DNA of 46,656 nucleotides from Oligoflexia bacterium (GTDB taxonomy: Bacteria; Bdellovibrionota; UBA1018), in assembly GCA_903881565.1 (NCBI GenBank), contig CAIRTR010000217.1, forward strand, positions 1 to 46,656, in the 5' to 3' direction. Numbering within the stretch: the stretch's first letter is position 1; the number at the start of each line of letters is the position of its first letter. Under the pieces are notes generated by a model, which had not been told where the DNA came from, made no database searches, and was given only the letters and a program-made list of their open reading frames with translations. The position numbers and the translations under genes are program-made. Shown in pieces: positions 2,539 to 43,196 of the stretch.

Positions 2539-2574
2539 GTAAGAAAAAGAAGTAAAAAAGAAGGACTACACTCC

Positions 2575-3891: not shown

Positions 3892-3943
3892 TCTGGAACG
3901 GTCCCTGCATTTCTTCTTTGCGTGAACAGAGGGAGATTTGCCT

Positions 3944-4615
3944 ATGCGATTCAATATTGTCTACGTAATGCTAACCGTTCTGATTGCCGGCACAGCTGCT
4001 TGGGCTGCGGAGGATACATCTCAGCAAACTCAAGCGGAGGCCAAAGAGATCACTCGCGGATACCTTCGAGATGAAAAGGTCGCCGTGAAACCACAGATGG
4101 GAGTGGTGGCTTTTAACGAGCCATCAACAAGCAATACCGGAAGTCGTCTTGCAGCAGGGGTCACCGCAGAAATGAATGCAGTGCCTTTTGTCGATAAGAC
4201 GATGGCTGCCTGGTACGTAGGTCCCTCAACCGGACTTATTTTCTCGCACCTGGGGTCTGACACCTCGAACTTTGTGGGAACGAACCAAGATGTAGGATCG
4301 CGGGGAACACCCAGCTCCAACCTCTTGATCATCCCAACAAATCTCAAGGTAGGCTATGCGTTTACAGACTATTATCGTCTGGCTGCGCATGGCGGTGGTA
4401 ATATTATTTACCGCTCTGTTGGAAACTCGATGTTGCTCGACAAATCTGAGGTTGCCACCTCGGATTCGCAGTGGAAGTACTATCCCAATATCGGTGCCGA
4501 CTTAGATGTCGCGATTTCACCGAACTTGGCCCTGACAGTACGTCCAGACTGGACGATCACCCCTGATGACAATGTCTTCATGGGGACAGTCGCCTTGAGC
4601 GTAAACTTCAGTTAA
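3944..4615 (+). CDS. small outer-membrane beta-barrel-like protein
   Basis: I start the gene at ATG 3944, behind a GAGGGAG ribosome binding site; an in-frame TTG at 3938 is less likely. A signal peptide of about 20 residues (ending TAAWA) precedes a polar segment. After that come alternating strands with many aromatic and glycine residues, ending in VALSVNFS. A terminal phenylalanine-containing strand of this sort is typical of outer-membrane barrels. The mature protein of about 200 residues fits an 8-stranded barrel. I cannot assign a specific family or function. A strong hairpin terminator follows at 4646. Confidence 0.5.
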   Translation: MRFNIVYVMLTVLIAGTAAWAAEDTSQQTQAEAKEITRGYLRDEKVAVKPQMGVVAFNEPSTSNTGSRLAAGVTAEMNAVPFVDKTMAAWYVGPSTGLIFSHLGSDTSNFVGTNQDVGSRGTPSSNLLIIPTNLKVGYAFTDYYRLAAHGGGNIIYRSVGNSMLLDKSEVATSDSQWKYYPNIGADLDVAISPNLALTVRPDWTITPDDNVFMGTVALSVNFS

Positions 4616-4645
4616 TCTCTAGCAAGCAGAACTCCTTTGTAATCA

Positions 4646-4688
4646 CCCCGGGCTTCACGATCAAACGATCGGGGAGCCCGGGGATTTT
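4646..4688 (+). terminator. rho-independent-type terminator after the 3944 gene
   Basis: CCCCGGGCT (4646-4654) pairs perfectly with AGCCCGGGG (4675-4683). An inner CGATC/GATCG pair lies in the loop, and the stem is followed by ATTTT. It sits 30 bases after the stop codon. The T-run is short, so read-through is possible. Confidence 0.7.
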
Positions 4689-4882
4689 CGCGTTTACTGG
4701 TTTTGTCCACGTGCTTGCAAGACGCTGCCGTCAAGTTCTTGGCTATGTTAGAGCGTATTATGGCGGAATTGCGGCAGTTTATCACAGAATTGGCGCGAGG
4801 GTCCCTCAAGACACAGTTGTTTAATCCCAAGGCCCGGGATAAAATCAGGGGCAGTGTGGGTAAATAAACAATGAGGGGATCT

Positions 4883-5887
4883 ATGAAAAATTTAACAAAT
4901 GTCGTCGCGGTTTTGGGTTTTGTATTGAGTGTTGGGGTGGTGAATGTGGCGAGTGCGGAGACGCTATCATGTCCCGGAACTGCCTCAGCATTAGTGACGG
5001 TTGGTGGGAGTCTGAATGGTTTCTATTCAGCACCAGTGACAAGAAAGTTGAGTTATGCTTCTGCAAGCGTCAATAGTGCTGGTAACGCGCTTCAATGCAA
5101 CTATCAATTTGCGACCGAATTAGGTGGAACTATATACTACCCCGCCTCCGCTAATAAAACTTGTCCGGCCACTGCTGATGTAACGGTAGCACCTGTTGCA
5201 TTCAACGGTTATTTGACAAAACCATTTACCCTTAAAGGTTTCACCCTAACTAGACAATACAGTTCGCCCGACAAATTGACCTCATATTGTGAATATAAAC
5301 CGCCCCTTCAGTATGAACTCTACGAGCCTACTGCGGCGAACCCCGCATTCAAATGCGCCAACACTCCAAGTTCCCAGTCGGTAGCAACGTGCGTGGCTCC
5401 CCCCGCACCCGTGATGCCCAAAAATGCAATCTTCTCATGTCAGTTTCCCGCTAGTATGAAGTCTACCTACCCAACACTACCTGCCGGAGGGTCTTCAAAA
5501 ATTTCTTGGGCAGGACTTTCTGTTTCCCTTATTTTCGATTTTACCGGCCCAGATGAATTCAAAGCTTCTGCCGGTATTGGAAATTTGTGCAAAATTGAGA
5601 CGGGCAGCCCTAAATTTGTCTGTGCCACGGGAATCCAAGCTAAAGACCCTAAAACTAACAAAGTCGTGTTATCCAAACTGCCGTCTGAAACAACTTTTAC
5701 AATACAAGATACTTCTCCAATTGCGGGTTATGGAGTTATACCAAGCAGCAGTACTTCGATTGGCATTAATGGAAAATTGTTGGTGAATGCCCAAGGTGGG
5801 CTCACTGCCACTCTAACTGAGGTCAAGGTCTCGATAGCGGAAGGAACAATGCCAATCCTAAAGGACCTTCAGTGTACCCAATTCTAG
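4883..5887 (+). CDS. secreted cysteine-containing protein of unknown function
   Basis: I do not recognise a family. I prefer ATG 4883: the AGGGG just upstream is a ribosome binding site, and the alternative ATG 4871 would include that site in the coding sequence. The first 26 residues form a clear signal peptide ending ASA. The mature protein of about 310 residues is Ser/Thr/Pro-rich and predicted beta-rich. It has regularly spaced single cysteines, which suggests periplasmic or surface location with disulfides. The leader AGGGGATCTAT recurs in the leader of the Ig-kelch gene at 36534. A hairpin follows the stop codon. The left boundary of the htrA-IS island lies just beyond it. Confidence 0.6.
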   Translation: MKNLTNVVAVLGFVLSVGVVNVASAETLSCPGTASALVTVGGSLNGFYSAPVTRKLSYASASVNSAGNALQCNYQFATELGGTIYYPASANKTCPATADVTVAPVAFNGYLTKPFTLKGFTLTRQYSSPDKLTSYCEYKPPLQYELYEPTAANPAFKCANTPSSQSVATCVAPPAPVMPKNAIFSCQFPASMKSTYPTLPAGGSSKISWAGLSVSLIFDFTGPDEFKASAGIGNLCKIETGSPKFVCATGIQAKDPKTNKVVLSKLPSETTFTIQDTSPIAGYGVIPSSSTSIGINGKLLVNAQGGLTATLTEVKVSIAEGTMPILKDLQCTQF

Positions 5888-5971: not shown

Positions 5972-6024
5972 CCTTCAACTGTACGAAAATCTTTTCTTTT
6001 TCCACTCTCTGGACATAAAGAACT
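5972..6024 (-). repeat. orphan copy of the htrA 3' end (direct repeat A, distal copy)
   Basis: This 53-base block matches 8235-8287, the last codons of htrA, at 42 of 53 positions by hand alignment, in the same orientation. Translated on the minus strand it gives VLYVQRVEKEKIFVQLK, against VLYVQRGEEEKIFVALK in the intact protease. The stop codon found in htrA is missing here, so the copy looks decayed. The homology stops one or two bases before the IS inverted repeat at 6026. Nothing else of a second htrA is present in the window. Confidence 0.85.
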
Positions 6025-6160: not shown

Positions 6161-6967
6161 TTAATGCGATGTCAATACTTCGTTATGATATTGGACATAG
6201 ATTGCCAAGTGGAGCGCCAGTCGATCTGCGCGCTTTGTCGTGCACCAAGTCCTGCGAAAGAGTCGGTTAATATTCGCCCGGATCATGGCACAGGTGTGAT
6301 TGAGGTCAAAAAGTGGGTCATGACCTATCTTTTTTAATTCACCTTGGCCCACGACACAGCCACGCTGCCCCTTGTGAGTTTTGTGAGTTGCGTTTGGAAA
6401 ATGGGGCTTTAGCCAATTAGGATATTTTGGATTCTGATCGCTGATGATCGCTGATGATCGCTGATGATCGTGGATGATCGTGGCCCTGGGGTGAATGATG
6501 GGCTTAAGTTCTTCAAAGAGCGAGGAGGCTGCGACGGCGCGATGGTCAGCTCTACGTCCATATTTCTTAACAGAAATTCCTGCAAGCGGCCCTTTAGCGG
6601 GCATTAAGCAGACCCGAAAACCTAGAATTTTTCTGCTCTCTGGCTGGACGACAAGCGGAATGCTCAAGGGCAAACATTTTGAATGCTCAAAACTCTCCAT
6701 TTCATCAAACTGAATTGCGTTTAGCTTTGTCCCCTTGGCATGCAGATCGGTTATAGCTTGTTTCAAATATTGAGTAGCCTGCTCACCTAAAAATATGAGT
6801 TTTCGGGGCACCGTTTTGCGATTAATTCGAAGTAGTTTTGCAATTCTTCTCTTCGAGACCCCTGAGCAATACAGTTTTCTAATTGGGTCATTGAGTCTTC
6901 GTTTCTTTTGGCCAAAACAGGCCGTGAGTCTGGAAGAAGAAAATGTCCGCTCACAAGTGAGGCACAA
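6161..6967 (-). CDS. IS transposase (IS1-like DDE), probably without an intact start
   Basis: The protein has the layout of an IS1-like transposase. A CxxC zinc-ribbon (CLTC) is followed by a helix-turn-helix (about residues 35-57, SKRRIAKLLRINRKTV). The DDE core begins at DEMESFEHSK and has a second Asp region at ISDQNPKYP. Near the C-terminus is a conserved block containing NHTCAMIRANINRLFRRTW. The first usable start is TTG 6967. The same frame continues upstream with plausible family residues (VRNGYYRRSSDSKRVSRF) to 7024 and stays open to about 7066, where a TAG closes it with no ATG or GTG in between. The true N-terminus therefore seems lost. A 10-bp repeat expansion also inserts ten residues beside the second catalytic Asp. 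Confidence 0.8.
   Translation of the reverse strand: MCLTCERTFSSSRLTACFGQKKRRLNDPIRKLYCSGVSKRRIAKLLRINRKTVPRKLIFLGEQATQYLKQAITDLHAKGTKLNAIQFDEMESFEHSKCLPLSIPLVVQPESRKILGFRVCLMPAKGPLAGISVKKYGRRADHRAVAASSLFEELKPIIHPRATIIHDHQRSSAIISDQNPKYPNWLKPHFPNATHKTHKGQRGCVVGQGELKKIGHDPLFDLNHTCAMIRANINRLFRRTWCTTKRADRLALHLAIYVQYHNEVLTSH
6436..6485. repeat. 10-bp tandem repeat inside the transposase gene
   Basis: The unit GATCGCTGAT occurs three times in a row, followed by one GATCGTGGAT and a partial unit. Three units add 30 bp, so the frame is kept. The result is an in-frame insertion (IHDHQRSSAI) immediately before ISDQNPKYP of the transposase. Confidence 0.9.
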
Positions 6968-7193
6968 AAAGCGCGAAACTCTCTTCGAATCAGAAGACCT
7001 TCGATAGTAGCCATTTCGGACAATCCGCCCGACTCTTGGACTTGAGTTCGAGCTGCCGAAGCTTCCCTAATTCAATGAGCACTCAATATAAGGGCATTTG
7101 GGGTGGAATCCCGCTGAACTTATCTCTCCCATGACTCAGGTAATTGGCAATTCCTGCGCCATTTCTGAAACTTAGAAATATCTCAGACTCGCT

Positions 7194-7226: not shown

Positions 7227-8168
7227 TCACAAATCCATCGCCTGCAGCATATTCTCCCAACTACAAATAAGTATCCCGTTTTGAGAACGGTTTCTATTCT
7301 TAACCTCGCGCATTCCAACTGCAATACAACGATGAACCTTAGGATAGTACTTTCGAAAAGCGAGGAGTCCATCGAGATCGCCTTGCTGAATTTCCCCCGA
7401 TTTGACTTCAATCGCCCAGATTTTTCCGCGCAACTTTACAATAAAATCAACTTCTAATCCGTGCCGAGTGCGAAAGTACTGAATCTCGATAGGTTCATCC
7501 AAAGCGAGCGCCGAGTTGCGAAGTTGACTATAAATGAAATGTTCAAAAAGAGCCCCCATCCTATCTTGAGAGATCTCGAAGCTGCCTAACAAACCATTGA
7601 GAACACCTGCATCAAAAAAATACAGTTTAGGGTGTCGAATAACATCGGCCTCTTCGGCGCGATCAAAAACCGTAACTCGTTGAGCGATCAAGGTGTCTTC
7701 GAGAATTTCCATAAATCGGATGCAGCTACTGCGCGAAACTTTGCTTTTTGTCGCAATCTTTGAAAAATCGCAGATCTGGCCAGAGAGCTCTGCGGCAGTA
7801 CTCAAAAAACGAGCAAAACCCGGGATACACCGAGCGAGGGCCTCCGCCTGGATCTCCTCCTTAAGATAAGTGGCCGAATAAGTGCGAAGAAGCTTTGCGC
7901 AGTCAGCACGATTGGATTCGAGGTAGGGTTCGGGCAAAGTTCCAAAAGCGAGCGCCTTATTTAGGTCAAGATGATAATCAAGTTCTCGTGCACACAAACC
8001 CGCCAGTTCAAACATAAAGACCCGCCCAGGAAGAAGGTTCGCCTGCCCTTTTCGCAGTTTGCGCGCACTAGAGCCTGAGAGGTAGAATTTTGGCGGATGA
8101 GGGCGATCATCTAAGATCGCTTGGATGGTATTAAGAAGAGAGGGAACACGCCTTAAGAAGACGGACAA
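7227..8168 (-). CDS. DUF4143 AAA-type ATPase lacking its Walker A region (probable pseudogene)
   Basis: The 313-residue frame matches the C-terminal three quarters of the widespread DUF4143 ATPases (about 380-400 aa). The matching segments include the sensor-like block FYLSGSSARKLRKG, LLPGR, TYLKEEIQAEAL, the late block KLYFFDAGV, and the nuclease-like end HGLEVDFIVK...AIEVKSG. It begins only at RVPSLLN, so the P-loop and most of the Walker B region are absent. Four bases upstream, another frame starts ATG ATT GTC CGT CTT CTT (MIVRLL, at 8172), the usual N-terminal style of this family. About 70 codons between the two have apparently been deleted out of frame. DUF4143 ATPases often sit in accessory DNA; their function is poorly known. 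ATP hydrolysis is not expected here. Confidence 0.75.
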   Translation of the reverse strand: MSVFLRRVPSLLNTIQAILDDRPHPPKFYLSGSSARKLRKGQANLLPGRVFMFELAGLCARELDYHLDLNKALAFGTLPEPYLESNRADCAKLLRTYSATYLKEEIQAEALARCIPGFARFLSTAAELSGQICDFSKIATKSKVSRSSCIRFMEILEDTLIAQRVTVFDRAEEADVIRHPKLYFFDAGVLNGLLGSFEISQDRMGALFEHFIYSQLRNSALALDEPIEIQYFRTRHGLEVDFIVKLRGKIWAIEVKSGEIQQGDLDGLLAFRKYYPKVHRCIAVGMREVKNRNRSQNGILICSWENMLQAMDL

Positions 8169-8229: not shown

Positions 8230-9768
8230 CTACGCCTTCAACGCCACGAAAATCTTCTCCTCTTCTCCACGCTGGACATAAAGAACCAAGGTTTCATCTG
8301 CCCGCGCACTTCGAAGACTCCGACGAAAACTCTTGGAGTCCACAACGGGCACGCGATTCACGCTCAAGACAATATCCCCGGGCATGAGCCCCGCTTCAAA
8401 CGCCGGCCCCCCCGGAAGAATCGAAACCACCAAAGCGCCTTTGGCATCCGGCAACCTCAGATAACGGGCAATTTCGGCGGGGATATTCTCTGTTTCAATC
8501 CCACGAGGAAGTGCCGTAATCAAAGGCGCCTTTCGATTCGGCTGTGCTTGCCCGGCCTGTTGAGCTTGCTCCTCTTTGCGAATGGGTTGAGTGCCAATTT
8601 CCAAAACAGCCTGGAGATGCTCTTTGCTTCGAACCACATCGACGGTCAGTTTTGCACCTTGAACGCTTTTATTGACTCTGTTCCTAAAATCCATAGCATC
8701 GAGAATCGGCGAATCTGAGAATCGTGTCACGACATCCCCGGATTGAAGATTCGCCTTCGCGGCGGGACTCCCCGGAACAACTTGAGTGAGAAGCGCACCC
8801 TGCTCATTGAGAGCTCCGAAAAATGCGCCCAGCTCGGGCGTCAGGTCCTGCGCGGCAAGCCCCACCCACCCTCGTGTGACATGACCTTGAGAGAGAAGCT
8901 GTCCCACAACTTCCTGAGCCACTTTCGAGGGAATCGAAAAGCCAATCCCCATGAAACCTCCCCCGGGAACTCGAGGGTTTCCGGGCATGGGTGATGACAA
9001 AATCGCAGTATTGAGTCCGATGATTTCACCTTTGAAATTCAACAAAGGCCCCCCCGAACTTCCCGGATTGATCGCGGCATCGGTTTGAAGAAAATCCTCG
9101 ATCTCCAATATTCCCACTCGCCCACGTCCTTTTGCGCTAATAATCCCCGCACTCAAGGAACGCATCAGACCAAAGGGGCTTCCCACCGCAAAAACAGGAT
9201 CACCGACCTGCATTTCGTCACTGTTTCCAAACTCCAGAACGGGGACAGGAGAAGAAGGCGCCTTCTCGAGCTGGATGAGCGCAAGATCCGTCCTCGAATC
9301 AAAGGCGATCAAACGCGCGGACTCTCGCCGCTTTTCGTCGATAATAACCGTTATTTTTGAGGCATTCTCAATGACATGAAAGTTGGTGAGAATCAGCCCA
9401 TTGCTCCGAATAAACACCCCCGACCCAAAACTTACGGGTGGATGCTCCGGCTGCCCGCCCAGTAGCCCCCATGGAGCAAAGCCGCCCCCCTCTTCAATCT
9501 GATCGAGAGAAAATACTCGCAGGGTACTGATCCCGACAACAGCCGGTAGAATTCGCTGAGCGGTTTTAGTAAAAGACCCATTATGCGAGCGAAAAAGATC
9601 GGTGAACTTTATAGGGCTTGGCGTAGCCTGACCGTCCGGCTGAGACTCAAAGAAAAGCAACGGCGTTGCGAGAAGCAATCCTCCCGCCAAGGACGACAAC
9701 GCTAAAAGTCGACGGTTTTCACGAGGTTTTCGCGCATTTTTTTGCCCATTGTCTTGAAAAATCGCCAT
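8230..9768 (-). CDS. htrA: HtrA/DegP-family periplasmic serine protease with two PDZ domains
   Basis: The protein is an envelope quality-control protease that degrades misfolded periplasmic proteins. Residues 21-40 form a signal anchor. The trypsin-like domain carries the full catalytic triad: H131 in NFHVIENA, D161 in RTDLALIQLE and S238 in NPGSSGGPL (the usual GNSGG is GSSGG here). PDZ1 lies at about 290-375 (GALLTQVVPGSPAA) and PDZ2 at about 420-510 (GALVVSILPGGPAF), giving the DegP/DegQ layout at a normal length of 512 aa. Its last 53 bp are duplicated at 5972 beyond the IS/ATPase island. The upstream gene ychJ ends 55 bases before the start and may be co-transcribed. Confidence 0.93.
   Translation of the reverse strand: MAIFQDNGQKNARKPRENRRLLALSSLAGGLLLATPLLFFESQPDGQATPSPIKFTDLFRSHNGSFTKTAQRILPAVVGISTLRVFSLDQIEEGGGFAPWGLLGGQPEHPPVSFGSGVFIRSNGLILTNFHVIENASKITVIIDEKRRESARLIAFDSRTDLALIQLEKAPSSPVPVLEFGNSDEMQVGDPVFAVGSPFGLMRSLSAGIISAKGRGRVGILEIEDFLQTDAAINPGSSGGPLLNFKGEIIGLNTAILSSPMPGNPRVPGGGFMGIGFSIPSKVAQEVVGQLLSQGHVTRGWVGLAAQDLTPELGAFFGALNEQGALLTQVVPGSPAAKANLQSGDVVTRFSDSPILDAMDFRNRVNKSVQGAKLTVDVVRSKEHLQAVLEIGTQPIRKEEQAQQAGQAQPNRKAPLITALPRGIETENIPAEIARYLRLPDAKGALVVSILPGGPAFEAGLMPGDIVLSVNRVPVVDSKSFRRSLRSARADETLVLYVQRGEEEKIFVALKA
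8235..8287 (-). repeat. htrA 3' end (direct repeat A, gene-proximal copy)
   Basis: This is the in-gene copy of the 53-base repeat whose orphan partner lies at 5972-6024. It encodes VLYVQRGEEEKIFVALK. The pair brackets the IS and the ATPase gene. Confidence 0.85.
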
Positions 9769-9823
9769 GATCTCTCAAAGGTGTGCAGATTAGGTGCCGA
9801 AACCGAGAAAAATAGATTGAAAG

Positions 9824-10339: not shown

Positions 10340-10666
10340 ATGGAAGAATCGGAGTTTAGAAAGAGAGTACAGACAATCTTTGATTTTATTGAGGGGCAAT
10401 TCGAGTCCATCGATCCAGATGTAGCCGAATGCACCCAATCGCAGGGGTCGCTCACGATCGCGTTTGCCAATGGAGCTCGCTGCATTTTGAGTACTCAGCC
10501 CTCTGTGCGTCAGATTTGGCTGGCGCTTGCCGCCAAGGGGTTAGCATTTCACTTCAATTTTGAGCCCATCTCCGGAAAGTGGCTTGACGACAAAGGCCGC
10601 CCGATTGAGCTTATGAATTGTGTTTCAGAGCACGTTAAAGAAACCTGTGGAATTCAATTAAAATGA
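10340..10666 (+). CDS. cyaY: CyaY / bacterial frataxin
   Basis: Frataxin homologues bind iron and modulate iron-sulfur cluster assembly by IscS. The 108-residue protein starts at ATG 10340 behind GAGAGG; an ATG at 10325 lies upstream of that site and is disfavoured. The acidic first helix (EESEFRKRVQTIFDFIEGQFE) carries the presumed iron-binding face. The sheet contains the family signature QPSVRQIWLA followed by GLAFHF. Its stop overlaps the grxC start by four bases (ATGA), so the two redox/iron genes are translationally coupled. Confidence 0.88.
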   Translation: MEESEFRKRVQTIFDFIEGQFESIDPDVAECTQSQGSLTIAFANGARCILSTQPSVRQIWLALAAKGLAFHFNFEPISGKWLDDKGRPIELMNCVSEHVKETCGIQLK

Positions 10667-14795: not shown

Positions 14796-15494
14796 ATGAC
14801 CACGAAAACGATCGGCCAAATTGTCGCAGAAGATTTCAGAACCGCAAAAGTGTTTGAAAAACATGGAATCGACTTCTGCTGTGGCGGAGAGATCACCCTT
14901 GTGGAGGCATGCAAAGCCAAGGGCGTTTCACTTGAGGCAATGGGCGCTGAGCTTACGACCGAAAAGGAGACGCCCCTAGACCGAAGCCAAAATTTTGGGT
15001 CTTGGACTTTGCCGTTTCTCGCTGACTACATCGTCAACACGCACCACACCTACCTTCGAGAGAACACTGCGAGCATTATTGAATACACGCAGAAAATAGC
15101 GCGGGTCCACGGTGAAGGGCATCCTGAACTAGTTCAGATCGCAGACACGTTTCAAAAGATCGCAACCGCCATGACCGCTCACCTTCAGGAAGAAGAAGAG
15201 ATCTTGTTTCCGGTCATCAAGCGAATTGAAGCCAGCAAAAAAGAAGGAAAACAAGCAGCGGCCGAGGATATGAATCTCCTCGAGAAAACGCTTAATGGCG
15301 TAAGTCGAGAGCATCAAGAGATAGGCGATGCGACCCACACGATTCGTCACCTCTCGCACGACTATTCGGTCCCTGCGGATGGGTGCAATAGTTATAAAGT
15401 CGCTTTTAAGATGCTCAAGGAGTTTGAAGACGATCTACATAAGCACGTGCATTTGGAAAATAATATTTTGTTTATGAAGGCAGGACGGAAATAG
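14796..15494 (+). CDS. ytfE: iron-sulfur cluster repair di-iron protein Ric (YtfE/ScdA)
   Basis: Ric proteins help repair iron-sulfur clusters damaged by nitric oxide or oxidants. ATG 14796 follows CAGAGGA; a long in-frame upstream extension is not credible. Residues 1-60 are the ScdA_N/DUF542 domain with GIDFCCGG (Cys 28 and 29). From about residue 75 comes a hemerythrin-like four-helix bundle with the expected His and Glu ligands: NTHHTYLREN, MTAHLQEEEEILFP, SREHQEIG and LHKHVHLENNILF. The length of 233 aa is typical. It is cytoplasmic. Confidence 0.92.
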   Translation: MTTKTIGQIVAEDFRTAKVFEKHGIDFCCGGEITLVEACKAKGVSLEAMGAELTTEKETPLDRSQNFGSWTLPFLADYIVNTHHTYLRENTASIIEYTQKIARVHGEGHPELVQIADTFQKIATAMTAHLQEEEEILFPVIKRIEASKKEGKQAAAEDMNLLEKTLNGVSREHQEIGDATHTIRHLSHDYSVPADGCNSYKVAFKMLKEFEDDLHKHVHLENNILFMKAGRK

Positions 15495-15894: not shown

Positions 15895-17706
15895 CTATTT
15901 CACACTCTTCAACGCCAGGTACTTATCCTTGTTCGTACAATGATCCGGCAAATTCGCGCGAATCGAACCCAGCTCATCCGCCCAAATTTCTACGCGCGCA
16001 TCAGGCTCCGTAGGCAGTGATCCCCACAGCCATTTCTTTTCTCCCTGATCCTTCGAGGGTGGCTCAATCCACTTTGCAAGAGTCGTCGAATAATCGGGAT
16101 GTGCATTCATGAAGATCATATCGTGAGAGGCCCCATTGAAGATTTCGATTTCCACTAACCTCAAACTCTGAGCCGCTTCTTTGAGTTGACTTAAAAGCAC
16201 GGCATTTTCTTTCCTGATCTGTTGATCAATTTGCGCAACCAACTCCTTACGACGACCGTTTGCAGAACGTCTAGAAGCGGCGGAGATCACATTCCAAAGC
16301 GCACCCGCTCTTTTCTGATTTAGGTATTCGACAACTCGAGCTCTTAGCTCGGCCATCGACTTTTGAACAAGGGGCGCGCTCGCTGACTTCGGATCCAAGG
16401 CAAGCTGGGGCCGAACACTATTTGCCAGATTATGAATGGCCAAGCGATTCTGCCCCCTCTCTTCTTCAAGATCATCTTTAAAGGCAGACCCAGTCGAGTC
16501 TTCCTCAAAGAGCGCATTGATTTCCCGCTGCGATGTCATAAACGCAGGCATTCGCATCCATTGCCTCACCAAAGTTTCAGGTGCTGAGGCCTTCCCTTCA
16601 GTGCGCGTAATAGCGAGTGAATAAAGAGAAGGCCCCCCCCCTCCCTGCCCCTGAGTTTGCAACCATTCAAAGTCTTGTGCATAACGAGTCTTGAAATTCT
16701 GAACCGCCTGCAGCGCTGCGGGATAATGGCAAAGCTCATTAAACGCAATCGCCAGCACCAAGGCTGCATCGGGAATAAATTCCCCCTTGAAGGCACTGCT
16801 CTGAAGAGAAAGAGCCACCCCTACGGCCTCTGGATAACGTCCAGAATCTAAAGCCGTCCAAGCGAGATCCGTGAGCGCAGTGGTAAACAACGGTGAGTTT
16901 CTTGGAATCAGCCGGAGTTGCCCCCAAGCTTCTTGAAACTTCTTGGTCGAAAAATAGGCTCTCGCCAACAGGATGCGGACATGGGCGGAGAATTCAGGCG
17001 CAAGTGCATTACTTTGAAGAGCAACATTTAAAGGAGCAAGACTGTCCGCGATCGCACCCCTTTTCAGGGCATTCAAACCCGTAAGAAGGGGGCCGTAAAC
17101 AGGATCTCGTTTTGCGACAAGAACAAGTGAATCTCCAATCACACCTATGGCCGGGTTTTTTCCGGCCTGCATTCCGAAAATGTAAAATGCCGCAGCCAGC
17201 TTGGGCGCGCCAGGATTGCCATCACTCAAAGTGAGGACCGCCTTGTAAACTTCAGGATCAATAGGAACCGAGGGATTCTCACTCTGAATCGAAACCCAGC
17301 ACTCCAAAGCCGCAAGTCTGATACTTCGATCTGAATTTGGCGAGTTTTCTTGCGAAAGTAGAACATTCTTAAACCCACCCAAGGCCGAATGCGAAAGCTT
17401 CGAACTCCAAAGCACACGCGCAATCCAAAACTCCGCAAACTTCTTTGTATACGAATCCTCTGCAGCAGCTCTAAGCGCAAGCGCATCGGAAAATGCAATC
17501 GCATTGGACTCCTCTACTGAATTCTCGTCTTTTAGAAAACGGAGATACTTGGTTTTCCACTTCTGTGGAAACTCCTGGGGAAACTCCCAAGACTCACGAG
17601 AGGTGCAGGCATGGGTCACGCCAGTGGGCTTGGCCCATGCGCTTCCCCAGGGACTCACATGGAAGCCCACCCCGAGAACAAATGCAGCTAGTAGAAATGC
17701 TCTCAT
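15895..17706 (-). CDS. periplasmic TPR-rich protein of the gliding operon (GltC-like position)
   Basis: This is the last gene of the ten-gene minus-strand operon. A signal peptide (ending GSAWA) precedes about 580 residues of mainly helical TPR-like sequence. Repeats such as LLARAYFSTKKFQEAWGQL and LTDLAWTALDSGRYPEAV lie at about 240-320. The C-terminal third is a helical linker (about 430-540) and a short beta domain. TPR scaffolds such as GltC, GltD and GltE hold the Glt complex in the periplasm and at the outer membrane in Myxococcus. The exact equivalent cannot be fixed from sequence. It starts 3 bases after the upstream gene's stop. Confidence 0.68.
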   Translation of the reverse strand: MRAFLLAAFVLGVGFHVSPWGSAWAKPTGVTHACTSRESWEFPQEFPQKWKTKYLRFLKDENSVEESNAIAFSDALALRAAAEDSYTKKFAEFWIARVLWSSKLSHSALGGFKNVLLSQENSPNSDRSIRLAALECWVSIQSENPSVPIDPEVYKAVLTLSDGNPGAPKLAAAFYIFGMQAGKNPAIGVIGDSLVLVAKRDPVYGPLLTGLNALKRGAIADSLAPLNVALQSNALAPEFSAHVRILLARAYFSTKKFQEAWGQLRLIPRNSPLFTTALTDLAWTALDSGRYPEAVGVALSLQSSAFKGEFIPDAALVLAIAFNELCHYPAALQAVQNFKTRYAQDFEWLQTQGQGGGGPSLYSLAITRTEGKASAPETLVRQWMRMPAFMTSQREINALFEEDSTGSAFKDDLEEERGQNRLAIHNLANSVRPQLALDPKSASAPLVQKSMAELRARVVEYLNQKRAGALWNVISAASRRSANGRRKELVAQIDQQIRKENAVLLSQLKEAAQSLRLVEIEIFNGASHDMIFMNAHPDYSTTLAKWIEPPSKDQGEKKWLWGSLPTEPDARVEIWADELGSIRANLPDHCTNKDKYLALKSVK

Positions 17707-36533: not shown

Positions 36534-39026
36534 ATGAAATCTATTTATTGGAAATATCTGTCGCGCACGCTTGGACTTGCCTTGGTTGCGTCGACCACGA
36601 TGGGCGCGGGAACTTGCACCTCGGGACCAAAGATGAATCGGACCTTGGGGTCGGTCACGAGAACCGTTTCGAACACTTCGGGCGGAACCAGTGGTCAGAT
36701 TAGCGGCTCCGGAATAATTCAAGACGCCCTCAAAGCTCCCAAGAATCTGCGCTTCTCCCAAAATTCTTTTGCGTTAACCGTGGGTAAGCCGGAATTAATT
36801 CTCGACCCCACCTTTGAAGAGGGAACCCCCGCACTTTTTGACATCAAACCCGATCTACCCAAAGGCCTGACGTTCGATTACCTGTTTGGAAATATTATCG
36901 GCACACCAAGTGTGGCAATGGATGAAACTGAATTCACAATTACGGCGAAGAATGCGGTGGGTGTGGCCGAGGTGAAGATAAAGATCAGCGTGAGTGAACT
37001 TGCGCTCCCGGCAGACCCTGTCGACGACGATCCCAGTCCTTCACTCAACTACAGCTCGTGTAACAGCATCTTGGTCTGTACGATTGGGCAACCATGCTCA
37101 TGCAAGCCTACTCTCGTTACCACACTACAAGTAACTTTTGAGTTTGCGAAAAAGTCGACTTTACCCACCTACCTCTCCTCTCCTAGCGATCTCGAAATCA
37201 TCAAAGGAATCTCAATGGATCACACAACTGGTGTGATCGGAGGAACGGCACTTGAGTTTTTGAGCAAGCCCCTGAGTGCGATTGTGAACGCAAAAAACTC
37301 AGAGGGGCGAGTTGTTGCATCCTCCATTGTTACTTTAAATCTGAGCATGCCTAAAAATACACCCTTTGACTACGGCGGAGGACTTCTCACATTTCCACTA
37401 GGTGACCTGGCTACTGAATTCAAACCGACATTAAATGGCTCTTTTGATACGTTCACCTATTCTCCTGCCTTGCCTGAGGGGATCAATCTCGACTCCAAAA
37501 ACGGAACCGTGAGTGGTACGCCTAAAGCATTTTCAGATAAACTCACAACTCATGTCGTTATCGCAAGTGATTCGAGTGGAAAAACTCCCTCGGCCGTGAC
37601 TGTTTTCACCCTCAAGCTTATGGATATTCCTCCCCTGAGCTTGACGTATTCATTCAATCAAAGTCTTTATGTAGTCGGAAAGCAAATTTTGCCAAATTAT
37701 GCACAATACAAAGGAGGAGCCGCGCAATTTAGTTCGCCTTGCTTCGGAGGAAATTCCAACATTGAAGGACTCATCTTGGATCCCTCTACCGCAAAAATAT
37801 CTGGTACACCCACGAAAATCTTCGATCCTAAAGTGTGTGCAATTACTGCTCAAAACAACGGAGGACCTCCCCTTACAACCAATGTAACGATAAGCGTAGT
37901 TAATCAGCTGCCAACGCTGGGAACCCCGGTATCAAATCGTTCAGATCATACTGCGACGCTCTTAACAGACGGAAGAGTCCTTATCGTAGGCGGGAGCGAT
38001 CTTGCTACAGCAGGAACACTGAAAACGGCGGAAATATTTGACCCCAAGACAGGCGCTTTTACAAAAACAGGGGACATGACTTATGCCAGACAAAAACATC
38101 AGGCCGTGCTTTTGTCGGATGGACAAGTTGCAATAATTGGAGGCACTTCCAACTCTGCTCCTCCGCCACCTGGCCCCTCAAAAACTATCGAAATCTATGA
38201 TCCAACAAGCGGCGAATTTTCAAAATCAATAGTCCCAATGACGAGAGAAAGGACTAGTCCGGCCGCGGCACTCATGCCCGATGGACGCGTCTACATTGTA
38301 GGAGGCAATTCCGATGGAGCACCTGAAATCTTCGATCCTTTCAAAGGGAGCAGTTCAGTAACTCGCCCGCCCGGCTTTAACTATTCCTTATTCTCAGTTG
38401 CTGCGACTCTAGACATAAATCCAGGTAAGGTTCTTTTCATTGAAGGAGCAAATGCAAACAATAATCCAGTCGAACTCTATACAGCTTCAACCAACTTAAT
38501 TTCTTCCGGCACTTCACTTCCAACGCAAATATTTGATTCCTTCACCCTCACTGCACTACCAGGAGGACGGTACGTAGTAGCAGGGGGCACCACCAGCAAC
38601 ACCTCAGTGGGTGGAGTGCTCATCAGCGACGTAAACACTTCAGTGAATACCCCCCTCTTTGGAGGAGATGATAGAGCTGGTCACACTGCCAACCTCATGC
38701 CCGATGAAAAAACAGTCATACTTTTGGGCGGATATGTGTATATCAATCAAACTATCTACTGGGGAAACACCGCCCCGGACGGAACCGAATGCAATAACGA
38801 TGCTGAAGATGACTGTCCGTATTCCTTCGACACACTTACTGCATCCGCCGATACTATCTCAACGGATTCAAAATCACTTACACGAAAATCCATTGCTGGT
38901 TTAAAGAGCGCCCGTTTTAAACACACTTCGACCCTACTGCAAAGTGGGACACTCTTGATCGTGGGCGGAGCGGATCTTGCCTCTACTCAAACAGTGAACA
39001 CTCCGGAGTACTACCCAGCCCCTTAA
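36534..39026 (+). CDS. paralogous lipoprotein with Ig-like modules and a kelch-type propeller
   Basis: This 830-residue protein copies the design of its upstream neighbour. The signal peptide has a lipobox GAGTC. At least four Ig-like modules follow (LPKGLTFDYLFGNIIGTPS, LPEGINLDSKNGTVSGTPK, IEGLILDPSTAKISGTPT and a diverged one with ISMDHTTGVIGGT). Then come seven kelch-like repeats (HTATLLTDGRVLIVGG, ALMPDGRVYIVGG, HTSTLLQSGTLLIVGG). A Cys/Asp-rich insertion lies in the sixth blade. The protein should be surface exposed and lipid anchored. The stop codon touches the orphan glycosyltransferase 3' end repeat. Confidence 0.78.
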   Translation: MKSIYWKYLSRTLGLALVASTTMGAGTCTSGPKMNRTLGSVTRTVSNTSGGTSGQISGSGIIQDALKAPKNLRFSQNSFALTVGKPELILDPTFEEGTPALFDIKPDLPKGLTFDYLFGNIIGTPSVAMDETEFTITAKNAVGVAEVKIKISVSELALPADPVDDDPSPSLNYSSCNSILVCTIGQPCSCKPTLVTTLQVTFEFAKKSTLPTYLSSPSDLEIIKGISMDHTTGVIGGTALEFLSKPLSAIVNAKNSEGRVVASSIVTLNLSMPKNTPFDYGGGLLTFPLGDLATEFKPTLNGSFDTFTYSPALPEGINLDSKNGTVSGTPKAFSDKLTTHVVIASDSSGKTPSAVTVFTLKLMDIPPLSLTYSFNQSLYVVGKQILPNYAQYKGGAAQFSSPCFGGNSNIEGLILDPSTAKISGTPTKIFDPKVCAITAQNNGGPPLTTNVTISVVNQLPTLGTPVSNRSDHTATLLTDGRVLIVGGSDLATAGTLKTAEIFDPKTGAFTKTGDMTYARQKHQAVLLSDGQVAIIGGTSNSAPPPPGPSKTIEIYDPTSGEFSKSIVPMTRERTSPAAALMPDGRVYIVGGNSDGAPEIFDPFKGSSSVTRPPGFNYSLFSVAATLDINPGKVLFIEGANANNNPVELYTASTNLISSGTSLPTQIFDSFTLTALPGGRYVVAGGTTSNTSVGGVLISDVNTSVNTPLFGGDDRAGHTANLMPDEKTVILLGGYVYINQTIYWGNTAPDGTECNNDAEDDCPYSFDTLTASADTISTDSKSLTRKSIAGLKSARFKHTSTLLQSGTLLIVGGADLASTQTVNTPEYYPAP

Positions 39027-39087
39027 TCCCCTACGCGCAGCCCTTACTCAGCAACTCCTCAAGCGGTGCGGGATCCTTGCCGGCCGC
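39026..39087 (-). repeat. orphan copy of the glycosyltransferase 3' end (direct repeat B, distal copy)
   Basis: This 62-base block matches 41066-41127 at 57 of 62 positions by hand alignment, in the same orientation. Translated on the minus strand it reads AGKDPAPLEELLSKGCA then stop, against AGKDPAPLEELLSKGWA then stop in the intact gene. No other part of a second glycosyltransferase is present. It bounds the AbiE island on the left. Confidence 0.92.
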
Positions 39088-39089
39088 AA

Positions 39090-39302
39090 CTACCGCAGGC
39101 GATACCTCACGCCCCGCCCCTTACCTTCAAGAACAAGAGGACCATCGGCGACCATCGATTTAAAGTAAACCATAACCGTATTTCGGTTCACTTTCGTTAG
39201 CGTCACAACTTCAGCAACGGAGGCAGAGCCATGGGTTTTAATGATCTCGATGATTTGAGCGAAAGGGGCGGCATCTTTGCCAACAAAATCTCTCCCCGAA
39301 GC
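39090..39302 (-). pseudogene. winged-helix domain remnant
   Basis: The minus frame from 39302 encodes about 70 residues that look like a winged-helix DNA-binding domain: FAQIIEIIKTHGSASVAEVV, then TKVNRNTVMVYFKSMVADG and a basic wing GKGRGVRYRLR before a TAG at 39090-39092. The frame is closed upstream by TAA at 39303-39305, and there is no ATG or other convincing start near its beginning. It probably is the C-terminal remnant of a larger gene. It lies between the AbiEii stop and the orphan repeat, so it is part of the island's distal end. Confidence 0.5.
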
Positions 39303-39322
39303 TTATGCTCACCCAGGATTCT

Positions 39323-40198
39323 TCACAAGCATCGCTGAACCATTACCGCTATTCTTTCCAACTGTTTCCAAGCGCTTTCAAAATCAAAAATAGAAAAGTC
39401 CCTATCCCGCAATACCGGGCGCAGATCTGTCTCTAACTGATCTTTGAATGCGGCTTTCCGCTCCAACGAAACCTGAATCTGGCCATTCCCAGAAACTTGA
39501 AACTTCTCCTTAATCAAAGCTAACCAACCCTGCTCATCTAAAGGAATATGACTATTGCGTGTTGCGTGATCCAGGTCGTACAGGTCCCTGATCGCAGCTT
39601 CCTTTCGCGTTAGCGCTGCCCGGACCTTTTCGGCGTAAGCCTCTCCTTTGGATAGGCAGGCAACATCAAAATGGGGTATCAACGGCGCATCAGTATAAGG
39701 GTCTTGAAGCAAAGTTGCAGCGGCCTTCATGACGGCTTCATGGACTTTTTCACGTTGGCTAATCTCAATCAAAATAGAATCTGTTTTCTCAATGAGCACA
39801 GAATTATATATAACAGTAGCATTGTACTGCCTCGACTCATTACTTCCCGTCAAAGACTTCTCAAGCACAACTCCAGGAATATTAGTAGGGAGTGCCAAAA
39901 CAATTGCCTTCAGAGGCTTTGCATTTTTGCTGCGCTCACCACGAGTGGTTTTAAAATCCGTCGAAATAGTAAAATCAAGATCTTCACTTAGCCTATAAAA
40001 TCCCGCATGAACTTTATTCAAAAGAGTTCCGCCTTTGAAAACAAGAGCGTTCCGCGTTTTCATTAACTCTCTTAAAACCAGCGAACAATAATAATCCTTT
40101 TCAATCAGGCGCGCGGAAAAGCCAGTTTTACCTTCGACAAATCGGATCGAATCCTTAAATGCGCTACGATCCTGATGCGGCAATAAAGGGTTAGACAT
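39323..40198 (-). CDS. abiEii: AbiEii-type nucleotidyltransferase toxin (type IV toxin-antitoxin)
   Basis: The 291-residue protein has the AbiEii/AbiGii nucleotidyltransferase signature: FKGGTLLNKVH (GG-T/S motif), then FYRLSEDLDFTI (D-x-D metal site). Later family motifs include a conserved ...KGEAYAEKVRAALTRKEA segment and IRDLYDLDHA. AbiEii enzymes use a nucleotide donor to halt growth; related enzymes modify tRNA. The cognate antitoxin gene overlaps its start by 8 bases. The catalytic residues are intact, so the toxin should work. It is one of the two intact genes on the island bounded by repeat B. Confidence 0.85.
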   Translation of the reverse strand: MSNPLLPHQDRSAFKDSIRFVEGKTGFSARLIEKDYYCSLVLRELMKTRNALVFKGGTLLNKVHAGFYRLSEDLDFTISTDFKTTRGERSKNAKPLKAIVLALPTNIPGVVLEKSLTGSNESRQYNATVIYNSVLIEKTDSILIEISQREKVHEAVMKAAATLLQDPYTDAPLIPHFDVACLSKGEAYAEKVRAALTRKEAAIRDLYDLDHATRNSHIPLDEQGWLALIKEKFQVSGNGQIQVSLERKAAFKDQLETDLRPVLRDRDFSIFDFESAWKQLERIAVMVQRCL

Positions 40199-40994
40199 TG
40201 AGAATCAAACCCCATTTTACATCGATTTTTCCACGCGCACTTTTTGTGGGATCCAGCGGCACAAAGGATCTTTGACTTGGAATAGTTTTCATAATCTTGG
40301 CAAGATAGGGCTTCGAATATTTCACCCCATCAAGCACAAAGCCCACACGCTTCTTCACAGCGACATTTCCGAGCTTGAGCAATATTCTCAAAAATTCATC
40401 CATAAATTTCTTGTCATTTACCCGCTCCTTGAGCCAACCAAAGGCCTTAGACTGCGTGCCATACTTCTCACAGTCATAAATCGCATCAAATACTGCGCGA
40501 GGGAGTGAGCTAAACTTAACCACAATCTCCCCCTCTCGCTCCTTTACATTATAGCCTTGGGTAAATCCCAGACGATCCGGCGCAATCTTAATAAACCGAT
40601 AATTTTGACCCGCAATTTTCTTCAACCCTGAAAGTTTGTCATTATACACATCCAATTGATTTGGCACCTGAGTATCTAAACCATATGAACTAAAAACCGT
40701 AAGACCGCTGATTTGATAGCCCTTCGCACTTACCGCTTTCATCAGCGCATCCACAATTAAGTATCCCGAGGGACTAAACACCCCTCCAGGTGGAAGTGTC
40801 TTTGGGACTAAATAGAGGCCCCGCATGAGTTTAGCGATAAGTCGCTTCTTAGATAACTGAGCAAGGAGTCTGGCCTCTTGCACCGGGGTCAAGCGTAAGG
40901 CGGCCAGCAGATCGCCTGTCTTTACGACCGTGATTCCCCTATTTTGTGACCAAGAAAGAAACTTGGACTCTATCGATCCATACCGTTCCACCAT
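40191..40994 (-). CDS. abiEi: AbiEi-type antitoxin / transcriptional repressor
   Basis: The 267-residue protein has an N-terminal winged-helix (about 8-70: TGDLLAALRLTPVQEARLLAQLSKKRLIAKLMRGLYLVP), typical of AbiEi. The C-terminal antitoxin domain has the block ERKA-like ISGLTVFSSYGL and later FSSLPRAVFDAIYD. AbiEi neutralises AbiEii and represses the operon by binding inverted repeats in the promoter. Such a repeat lies directly upstream here. It precedes and overlaps the toxin gene, the standard order. Confidence 0.83.
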   Translation of the reverse strand: MVERYGSIESKFLSWSQNRGITVVKTGDLLAALRLTPVQEARLLAQLSKKRLIAKLMRGLYLVPKTLPPGGVFSPSGYLIVDALMKAVSAKGYQISGLTVFSSYGLDTQVPNQLDVYNDKLSGLKKIAGQNYRFIKIAPDRLGFTQGYNVKEREGEIVVKFSSLPRAVFDAIYDCEKYGTQSKAFGWLKERVNDKKFMDEFLRILLKLGNVAVKKRVGFVLDGVKYSKPYLAKIMKTIPSQRSFVPLDPTKSARGKIDVKWGLILNV

Positions 40995-41048
40995 ATATTC
41001 TATTTACGCTAATTCTGGTCTAACCGCAATACAAGAAAATAGAATATA
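40994..41048 (-). promoter_or_regulatory. inverted-repeat operator of the abiE operon
   Basis: TATATTCTATTT (40994-41005) is mirrored exactly by AAATAGAATATA (41037-41048), 12-bp arms about 31 bp apart. The arm overlaps the abiEi start codon. AbiEi antitoxins are known to bind paired inverted repeats, so this is the likely autoregulatory site. Confidence 0.65.
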
Positions 41049-41065
41049 CACTCAAAACTCACCCT

Positions 41066-41127
41066 ATCCCCTACGCCCAGCCCTTACTGAGCAACTCCTC
41101 AAGCGGCGCGGGATCCTTACCCGCCGC
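41066..41127 (-). repeat. glycosyltransferase 3' end (direct repeat B, gene-proximal copy)
   Basis: This is the in-gene copy of the 62-base repeat whose orphan partner lies at 39026-39087. It includes the last 19 codons of the glycosyltransferase (counting its stop) and five bases beyond. Confidence 0.92.
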
Positions 41128-42219
41128 TGCCCAAGCCTCACGCACAACGCCCACAAACTCGCGCTGAAACCGCTCACGCGTGAAGAGTGCCGCACGTGTG
41201 CGACAGTCGGCCTCTGAAAACACCACCGCGCCCGTTTCTATTTTCTGGACCGCTTCCATGAGCGCCTCGACTGTCTGCGGAGTAAACAACACCCCTGTCT
41301 GTGGCGTCACCGTCTCACACGCGCCGCCTTCACCAAACGCGATCACAGGTGCCCCTGAAGCCATAGCTTCAACCGGCGTGATTCCAAAATCGTCTTTGCC
41401 CGGAAACACAAACGCGCGGCATTTCGAATACAAATCCGCAATCGCGGCGTTTGATAATGAACCTAAAAAATCTATGGTTGGCCCTGCAATCTTCTTAAGC
41501 GCCTTTTGTCCGGGACCTGACCCCACAATGAGCAGCGGTAACTTGAGTCGCGTAAACGCCTCAATCGCGAGATCCACGCGCTTATTGGGCGCAAACGCGC
41601 CCACCATCAAATAACATTTCCCAGGGAGTCTGGGCTTCGTAAACCTGGACTGCTCGGCAAACGGGTAAATCACCTTGGCATCGCGCCCGTAAAGTTCCCG
41701 CAATTGGCGCGCGATGTATTCACTGTTTCCCACCATCGCATCGACCCGCTCGGCAGTGCTCACGGATTTATCCCAATCTTGAAGGCGCTTGCGGACAGCT
41801 GCGGCCGCCAGGCGAACCGGAAACTTCGCTCGCCCCGGTCCAAAATAGTCTTCATACCGATCCCAGATATATCGCATCGGCGCATGTACATAAGAAACAT
41901 GAACTGCGCCCGGCGCTTTGCGAATCCCCTTCGCCACACAATGCGATGAAGAGATGACAAGATCAAACCCCGTAAGATCAAAGCGATCAATCATTTGGGG
42001 CATCAGGGGCAAGAAATAACGATAACGCTTTTCAGCCTGCGGAACCTTTTGTAGCCAGCTCTTATGAATTTTCAATGTGCTTAGAATCGGGGAAATCGCC
42101 CCGGGCACCTGAATCAGCGTAAAAAGATCACTCTTGGGAAAAAGCTCCGCGATGGCTTCGAGGACGTATTCGCCGCCGCGCATTCCGGTGAGCCAGTCAT
42201 GAACAAGTGCGACTTTCAC
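41071..42219 (-). CDS. GT4 glycosyltransferase (WbaZ-like mannosyltransferase type)
   Basis: The start is GTG 42219, overlapping the stop of the upstream epimerase gene (GTGA); it gives KVALVHDWLTGMRGGE, the usual start of this group. The protein is a GT-B fold enzyme: acceptor domain to about 190, then the donor domain with VGAFAPNKRVDLAIEAF, GSGPGQKAL and the E-x7-E motif in FPGKDDFGITPVEAMASGAPVIAF. WbaZ-like enzymes add mannose to O-antigen or capsule units; the donor is not certain. It is the last gene of the polysaccharide operon, and its 3' end is the insertion point of the AbiE island. Confidence 0.85.
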   Translation of the reverse strand: MKVALVHDWLTGMRGGEYVLEAIAELFPKSDLFTLIQVPGAISPILSTLKIHKSWLQKVPQAEKRYRYFLPLMPQMIDRFDLTGFDLVISSSHCVAKGIRKAPGAVHVSYVHAPMRYIWDRYEDYFGPGRAKFPVRLAAAAVRKRLQDWDKSVSTAERVDAMVGNSEYIARQLRELYGRDAKVIYPFAEQSRFTKPRLPGKCYLMVGAFAPNKRVDLAIEAFTRLKLPLLIVGSGPGQKALKKIAGPTIDFLGSLSNAAIADLYSKCRAFVFPGKDDFGITPVEAMASGAPVIAFGEGGACETVTPQTGVLFTPQTVEALMEAVQKIETGAVVFSEADCRTRAALFTRERFQREFVGVVREAWAAAGKDPAPLEELLSKGWA

Positions 42220-43196
42220 AAACAAGTCTTAAAATATTCGAGCGTTTTCGCCAGACCCTCTTCTAACGACACCTTGGGCTCCCAACCCAAAAGCGTGCGC
42301 GCACGCGTGATATCCGGGCAGCGTTTGCGTGGATCATCAGGACGGGCCGGCATAGAAGTCAGCGTCGAGCGAGAACCCGATAGTTTGATCACCGTTTCCG
42401 CAAACTCACGCACGGAGCGCTCCACGGGATTTCCAATGTTCACGGGATCTTTGATATTGCTCTCAAAGAGGCGCACGATTCCGTCCACTAGGTCTGTGAC
42501 ATAACAAAAACTCCGAGTCTGACTTCCATCTCCATGAATCGTCAGCGGCTTGCCCTGCAACGCTTGCATACAAAACTCAGGCACAATGCGCCCGTCATCA
42601 GGACGATTGCGAGGGCCGTAGGTATTGAAAATTCGAACCATGCCGCCATTGAGCGGCTTTGAGCAGCCCTCCGGCCAACGACCCACTCCTCGATTTGCGG
42701 TACTGACATAGGCCTCGGCAAAACGCTTCGCTTCATCATAGCAAGCGCGCGGGCCCGTTGTACTGACGTTTCCCCAATAATCTTCTTTTTGCGGATGAAC
42801 GAGTGGATCTCCATAAGTCTCAGAAGTTGAAGCGAGCAGATAGCGCGCATTATGGCGCATCGCTAGCTCCACCGTATGCTTGGTGCCCTCAGAATCCACG
42901 GCCAAAATCTCAAACGGAATTTTATCAAAATCCACAGGACTTGCAGGACACGCAAAATGAAACACCCCATGCAACCCGTGTTTTGCGAGCAACTCCAGAC
43001 GTTGCTCCGGAATCGGCTTGCACACATCCCACTCCAGAAGTCTCATGTTTGGATTCTCAAGTGCTTGCTTAAGATTCTCTTTCCGACCGGTTACAAAATT
43101 ATCGACCGCGGTAACCGCGTATCCTTTTCCAAGCAAAGTCTCAGATAAATGAGAGCCAATGAATCCTGCCCCGCCCGTAATGACAATATGTTTCAT
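42216..43196 (-). CDS. SDR sugar-nucleotide enzyme, UDP-glucuronate decarboxylase type
   Basis: The start is ATG 43196 (MKHIVITGGAGFIGSH). The Rossmann motif GGAGFIGSH is at residues 8-16. The mid-region has VDFDKIPFEILAVDSEGT, the STSETYGDP segment and the catalytic Y-x3-K in CYDEAKRFAEAYV. FNTYGPRNRPDDGRIVP and SFCYVTDLVDGIVRL follow. This layout is characteristic of UDP-glucuronic acid decarboxylases, which make UDP-xylose for polysaccharides. Length (326 aa) fits. It lies 22 bases after the Wzy-GT4 gene and overlaps the next glycosyltransferase. Confidence 0.85.
   Translation of the reverse strand: MKHIVITGGAGFIGSHLSETLLGKGYAVTAVDNFVTGRKENLKQALENPNMRLLEWDVCKPIPEQRLELLAKHGLHGVFHFACPASPVDFDKIPFEILAVDSEGTKHTVELAMRHNARYLLASTSETYGDPLVHPQKEDYWGNVSTTGPRACYDEAKRFAEAYVSTANRGVGRWPEGCSKPLNGGMVRIFNTYGPRNRPDDGRIVPEFCMQALQGKPLTIHGDGSQTRSFCYVTDLVDGIVRLFESNIKDPVNIGNPVERSVREFAETVIKLSGSRSTLTSMPARPDDPRKRCPDITRARTLLGWEPKVSLEEGLAKTLEYFKTCL

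Follow-up and report, generated by a model that had tools for sequence, protein, structure and literature searches.

In the window analysed here, a contig of 46,656 nucleotides (CAIRTR010000217.1) apparently from a species of Bdellovibrionota, an abiE toxin-antitoxin operon was found between two copies of the 3' end of a glycosyltransferase gene. The operon may have been captured between two convergent genes by homology-assisted illegitimate recombination, having no recombinase of its own, a reading to which we assign a probability of a little under one half. It is based upon the divergence between the two copies of the gene end, the content of the unit that they enclose, and the recurrence of the same arrangement with other genes in the same genome and phylum.

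The abiE operon and the duplicated gene end

The direct repeat consists of 62 nt at 39026-39087 and 41066-41127, in the same orientation and at a spacing of 2040, with 57 of the 62 positions matching (92% identity). A repeat search of the window reproduced the coordinates, identity, and orientation that a sequence-only reading of this DNA had previously assigned by hand. In the self-comparison of the contig the match has an E value of about 2e-18, far beyond chance. The genome-wide search suggested with that reading was run across the 4.56 Mb assembly and found these two copies only. Read in the direction of the glycosyltransferase gene (GCG GCG GGT AAG ... TGG GCG TAG GGGAT), the 62 bp are made up of its last 18 codons, the stop codon, and 5 nt downstream. 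The gene-side copy (41066-41127, minus strand, by codon reading) ends an intact group 1 glycosyltransferase gene (41071-42225, minus strand; Pfam PF00534, 5.7e-26), the orthologues of which within the family are 65-72% identical and share an AGKxxxxLxxxIxxGWA-like ending. The other copy (39026-39087, minus strand) is an orphan. The encoded tails, each running up to the stop, are AAGKDPAPLEELLSKGWA for the glycosyltransferase and AAGKDPAPLEELLSKGCA for the orphan.

All five mismatches between the copies are at third codon positions and four of them are synonymous. The fifth changes a Trp to a Cys in the orphan, at a position where relatives from the family have Trp in alignments of the full-length protein. 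Since the differences are confined to third positions and are mostly synonymous, the two copies resemble alleles that have diverged more than they do a recent duplication made in place. When such a duplication was simulated, with the orphan evolving neutrally and the gene under constraint, the observed outcome arose in approximately 1% of runs (P ~0.01). Few as the differences are, the pattern is more in keeping with a tail that was brought in with the cargo after diverging in another lineage.

The unit of 2 kb contains AbiEi, AbiEii, and the remnant of a third gene only, and, as had been noted from the letters alone, there is no integrase or transposase among the genes between the copies. The abiE promoter region (40995-41065, minus strand, read from the sequence) is 71 bp with a GC content of 32% and contains a perfect 11-bp inverted repeat, ATATTCTATTT (40995-41005) and AAATAGAATAT (41037-41047), which is a probable AbiEi operator. 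The gene for the antitoxin and repressor, abiEi (40191-40994, minus strand; PADLOC AbiEi, 3e-27), is directly upstream of abiEii (39323-40198, minus strand; Pfam PF08843, 1.3e-28; PADLOC AbiEii, 6.7e-33), which encodes the nucleotidyltransferase toxin, and the two overlap by 8 bp. The Pfam and PADLOC matches thus bear out the earlier identification of an AbiE pair. This gene order and overlap, the toxin type, and the inverted repeat in the promoter are all shared with AbiE type IV systems, from which no notable difference was seen, and the operon would probably act as a type IV addiction module of the usual kind. The AbiE genes have a GC content of 44-45%, compared to 55% for the glycosyltransferase gene, supporting the view that the cargo is foreign.

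Between abiEii and the orphan is what had been described as a winged-helix remnant. The remnant is present and its identity can be refined: it is the C-terminal winged-helix domain of a Fic-family gene (39090-39302, minus strand), truncated at its 5' end and retaining its native stop codon (TAG, 39090-39092). The 70 codons at 39093-39302 are open, and when 369 genomes from the phylum were searched by tblastn they were 52-58% identical to the C-termini of the closest intact Fic proteins, which have the HPFQDGNGRLSR motif and a GRGxRYRxR-like end. No Pfam family scored above its cut-off for 39093-39302. The front of the gene has been lost and its end kept, and only 2 nt separate its stop from the orphan tail.

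The other side of the unit is bordered by an intact convergent gene for a Kelch/Ig-repeat protein (36534-39026, plus strand; Pfam Kelch_4, 1e-18), the TAA stop codon of which (39024-39026) ends on the first base of the repeat. With a single copy of the repeat and no cargo, the Kelch and glycosyltransferase genes would both be complete, lying tail to tail and a few bases apart. Since one copy is enough to keep both neighbours whole, an insertion could be harmless only by duplicating the gene end or by introducing a second one.

Gene ends duplicated beside other cassettes

Further cases were sought in a set of loci together with 1.25 Mb (~27%) of this genome, the genes being named from their translations by eye, except for DUF4143. 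Five other places were found. Within the window itself, an HtrA-like protease gene (8230-9774, minus strand) has a copy of its end 2.26 kb downstream (5972-6023 and 8235-8286; 52 bp, 81%), and between the copies are a DUF4143 gene truncated at the 5' end and lacking its N-terminus (7227-8168) and a transposase-like open reading frame (ORF; 6161-7066). In another contig of this genome (L209, C123, 16378-18897), the tail of a VOC-type gene (16378-17310) is copied ~1.5 kb downstream over ~110 bp; a RelE-like ORF separates the copies and DUF4143 remnants lie beyond. A third contig (L316, C147) has a single DUF4143 gene between repeats of ~70 bp and 80% identity (835-903 and 2110-2179); here one strand of the repeat encodes the end of a phosphatase and the opposite strand the DUF4143 C-terminus, so two readings are possible. 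In a genome from another family of the phylum (L222, G181:C132), a RelE/helix-turn-helix pair separates an unnamed gene from a 38-bp copy, at 97%, of its last 12 codons (2060-2097 and 3237-3274). In a genome of the same family (L359, G002:C15), a DUF4143 gene is between perfect 23-bp repeats (840-862 and 2365-2387) that are the exact overlap of two convergent genes, both of which keep their stops.

The flanking genes are convergent in five of the six places, including the abiE site. The targets all differ, being the ends of the glycosyltransferase, HtrA-like, VOC, and phosphatase genes, of the unnamed gene, and of the convergent pair, and the cargo in the five other cases is RelE-type or DUF4143. 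The VOC copies have third-position differences similar to those of the glycosyltransferase copies, with five of five in one block (P ~0.01-0.02) and P ~0.04-0.12 in the other; the tendency is weaker in the HtrA-like copies than in either of these.

In 78 blindly chosen contigs of this genome (1.0 Mb, 887 ORFs), no clear case of an orphan tail without a paralogous body was found. Apparent tail matches on C80 (pilins), C61 and C11 (histidine kinases), and C22 (a fragment of an MNT-type gene) were discarded, being explained by paralogues. Because the blind sample gave no clear case, the pattern would seem to accompany cargo of this type and not to be a general feature of genes, although no formal rate is possible.

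Alternative origins of the duplicated tail

For capture by host recombination, the incoming DNA would have been the 3' end of a related glycosyltransferase gene followed by the cargo. The incoming tail would have paired by homology with the resident gene on one side, while on the other an illegitimate joining would have linked the cargo to resident DNA 57 nt short of where the resident gene ends. That gene would then have taken the incoming tail and its old tail would have been displaced to the far end, where it is seen as the orphan. Two rounds are suggested by the Fic remnant, truncated at its 5' end, that separates abiEii from the orphan: a cargo with the Fic gene would have come first and abiE later would have displaced all but the Fic end. 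Activity of the operon as an addiction module would favour its retention.

The remnants, namely the Fic tail here and the DUF4143 gene at 7227-8168 in the HtrA-like case, are truncated at the 5' end and have the orientation of the intact gene. At the abiE site the intact gene is followed by the newest cargo, also intact, then by older cargo truncated at its 5' end, and finally by the old tail, and this nested order is the trace that would be expected of homology-facilitated illegitimate recombination. Sequential displacement by this process has been proposed for the orphan immunity arrays of the Vibrio cholerae type VI secretion system (PMC5361080), which likewise have a constant anchor gene with the newest cargo intact beside it and older 5'-truncated remnants downstream. 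The abiE site differs in that the anchor is a glycosyltransferase gene and in that the anchor's own 3' tail has also been left behind. Many small variable segments of bacterial genomes have been attributed to homology-assisted illegitimate recombination (PMC2884548).

Several points weigh against this account. The changes from which the codon-position argument is drawn are few. The perfect 23-bp repeats in G002 and the 38 bp at 97% in G181 fit a local duplication of the target equally well. Neither the abiE contig (C217) nor C123 was blindly chosen, and the sampling of the other cases was also partly biased. Neither the donor allele nor an empty site was seen among the compared genomes, none of which is from the same genus.

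The search for an empty site covered 35 genomes of the family and 80 named loci, the nearest having ~72% protein identity; the named relatives belong to the Bdellovibrionales and Oligoflexia. In the family-level relatives, a convergent PfkB kinase gene or unrelated genes are found 3' of this glycosyltransferase gene. A scan of these loci found no second copy of the gene end, and no Kelch orthologue was found next to the glycosyltransferase in the relatives. The best AbiE relatives in the phylum are 50-64% identical, and no gene-end repeats were found around AbiE in relatives at 41-64% identity (G006, G017, G005, G047, and G326). No close AbiE relatives were found in viral contigs, phages, or plasmids, and no copies of the 62 bp were found in viral contigs.

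Insertion in place with a long target duplication is the next explanation to be considered and is, on balance, doubtful. Here the cassette would insert, the target would be copied on both sides by an unspecified process, and the orphan would then drift. The concept and its link to restriction-modification genes have been described in Helicobacter (Nobusato et al. 2000, as related in PMC1643837 and PMC3031569). Small cargo of the addiction type, a direct repeat of the target sequence of tens of bp or more, and the lack of a transposase, which this process does not need, are common to that system and the sites described here. The length and variability of the direct repeats (23, 38, 52, 62, 70, and ~110 bp) also agree with it, as does the 23-bp repeat in G002 that leaves both convergent genes intact. 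At the abiE site, however, the cargo is a type IV toxin-antitoxin operon, the copies have diverged like alleles, and the repeats are found where convergent genes end. The mismatches in the glycosyltransferase and VOC copies are more conservative than is predicted for a neutral orphan, and the Fic remnant would require an extra event. The main difference between this process and capture by illegitimate recombination is whether the tail was brought with the cargo or copied on the spot, and the codon pattern leans towards a tail that was brought in.

The sequence-only reading had likened the arrangement to the outcome of an integrase that targets a gene's 3' end. Its description stands, in that foreign cargo separates an intact gene, which keeps a working tail, from an orphan copy of its 3' end, but the mechanism is not upheld, given at least five other unrelated target genes. 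An integrase-type element, with the repeats as attL and attR at the gene's 3' end and the recombinase lost or acting in trans, as in a remnant of a cis-mobilizable element (CIME), is considered unlikely. As at known integrase targets, the 3' end has been restored with synonymous changes, and one contig of this genome (C222) does have an AbiE-like pair with excisionase-like and tyrosine-recombinase-like genes. Integrative elements at gene and tRNA 3' ends, and CIMEs without a recombinase, similarly restore the gene end and leave an orphan at the far side. The unit here is of 2 kb and has no recombinase, however, and each similar unit has a different target sequence. Because the similar duplications involve unrelated genes and other cargoes there is no shared attachment site, and with six unrelated target sequences a single site-specific recombinase is unlikely. 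Nor was a related element found at this gene in the relatives inspected.

It is just as improbable that a second glycosyltransferase gene once existed here, that its body was lost when Fic and abiE entered, and that the orphan is what is left of it. Both copies have changed as if under coding constraint, and this genome does contain decayed partial duplicates, such as the MNT-type gene on C22. The sequence-only reading had singled out derivation of the orphan from a full second gene as the finding that would undo it. That finding was not made: no more of a second gene is present than its last 18 codons and the stop, directly after the native end of the Fic gene, and several other genes have the same tail-only pattern beside cassettes. 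An assembly artefact or chance is extremely improbable even for a draft metagenome assembly of 323 contigs, given the E value, the five differences between the copies, which cannot be one sequence placed twice, and the intact reading frames on both sides. The scar is real and resembles the outcome of an integrase, but the evidence points to host recombination.

DUF4143 genes and a possible class of small cassettes

Matches to the DUF4143 ATPase gene are numerous in this genome (49) and in four others (76 in G005, 70 in G010, 58 in G014, and 40 in G024), with one or two in several relatives. Flanking repeats were assessed against a control in which the upstream flank of one gene was paired with the downstream flank of another. 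Four of 51 DUF4143 genes exceeded the 99th percentile of the control, where 0.5 would be expected; one of the four has a dispersed repeat (L334) and another is within a tandem pair of DUF4143 genes (L330). It can be speculated, with still less likelihood than for an integrase-type element, that the Bdellovibrionota carry a class of recombinase-free cassettes, including AbiE, RelE-type pairs, and single DUF4143 genes, the last numbering tens of copies in a genome. Such cassettes would enter where convergent genes end, at their 3' ends, and would duplicate the tail, which would allow both neighbours to survive. The DUF4143 proteins, which are AAA+ ATPases with nuclease-like C-terminal residues, may cut in cis or in trans.

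Repeats of other kinds were seen around AbiE and similar cargo. In G303 (L208, C195), ~180-bp repeats (1491-1673, 4923-5102, and 6428-6607) are upstream of an AbiE operon and DUF4143-like genes and resemble a shared leader of several cassettes. In G110 (L205, C76), AbiE, a RelE-like/helix-turn-helix pair, and a HipA-like gene are in a row, separated by intergenic repeats of 50-115 bp. The AbiE-associated repeats of G110 and G303 were considered as signs of integron cassettes, an idea that was rejected, the sequences being unlike attC by eye. The AbiEi/AbiEii-like pair on C222 (L246) is followed by the excisionase-like and tyrosine-recombinase-like genes (2178-5474; families by eye only), and there are 103-bp repeats at 397-499 and 6431-6533. 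In G005 (L145, C10), the 3' end of a tRNA-Leu gene is duplicated (10378-10450 and 15037-15109; 73 bp, 96%), the copies enclosing 4.6 kb of cargo with no apparent integrase among its ORFs of at least 120 aa.

To our knowledge, it is still not settled how small addiction modules move without recombinases. Here a toxin-antitoxin pair is seen together with the scar of its arrival, and similar scars are found with other cargoes and other targets in the same genome and phylum. The old idea of long target duplication can thereby be tested with toxin-antitoxin genes, and the duplicated gene end offers a sequence signature for which genomes can be searched. A duplication of the gene end that spares both convergent neighbours would explain how such insertions survive.

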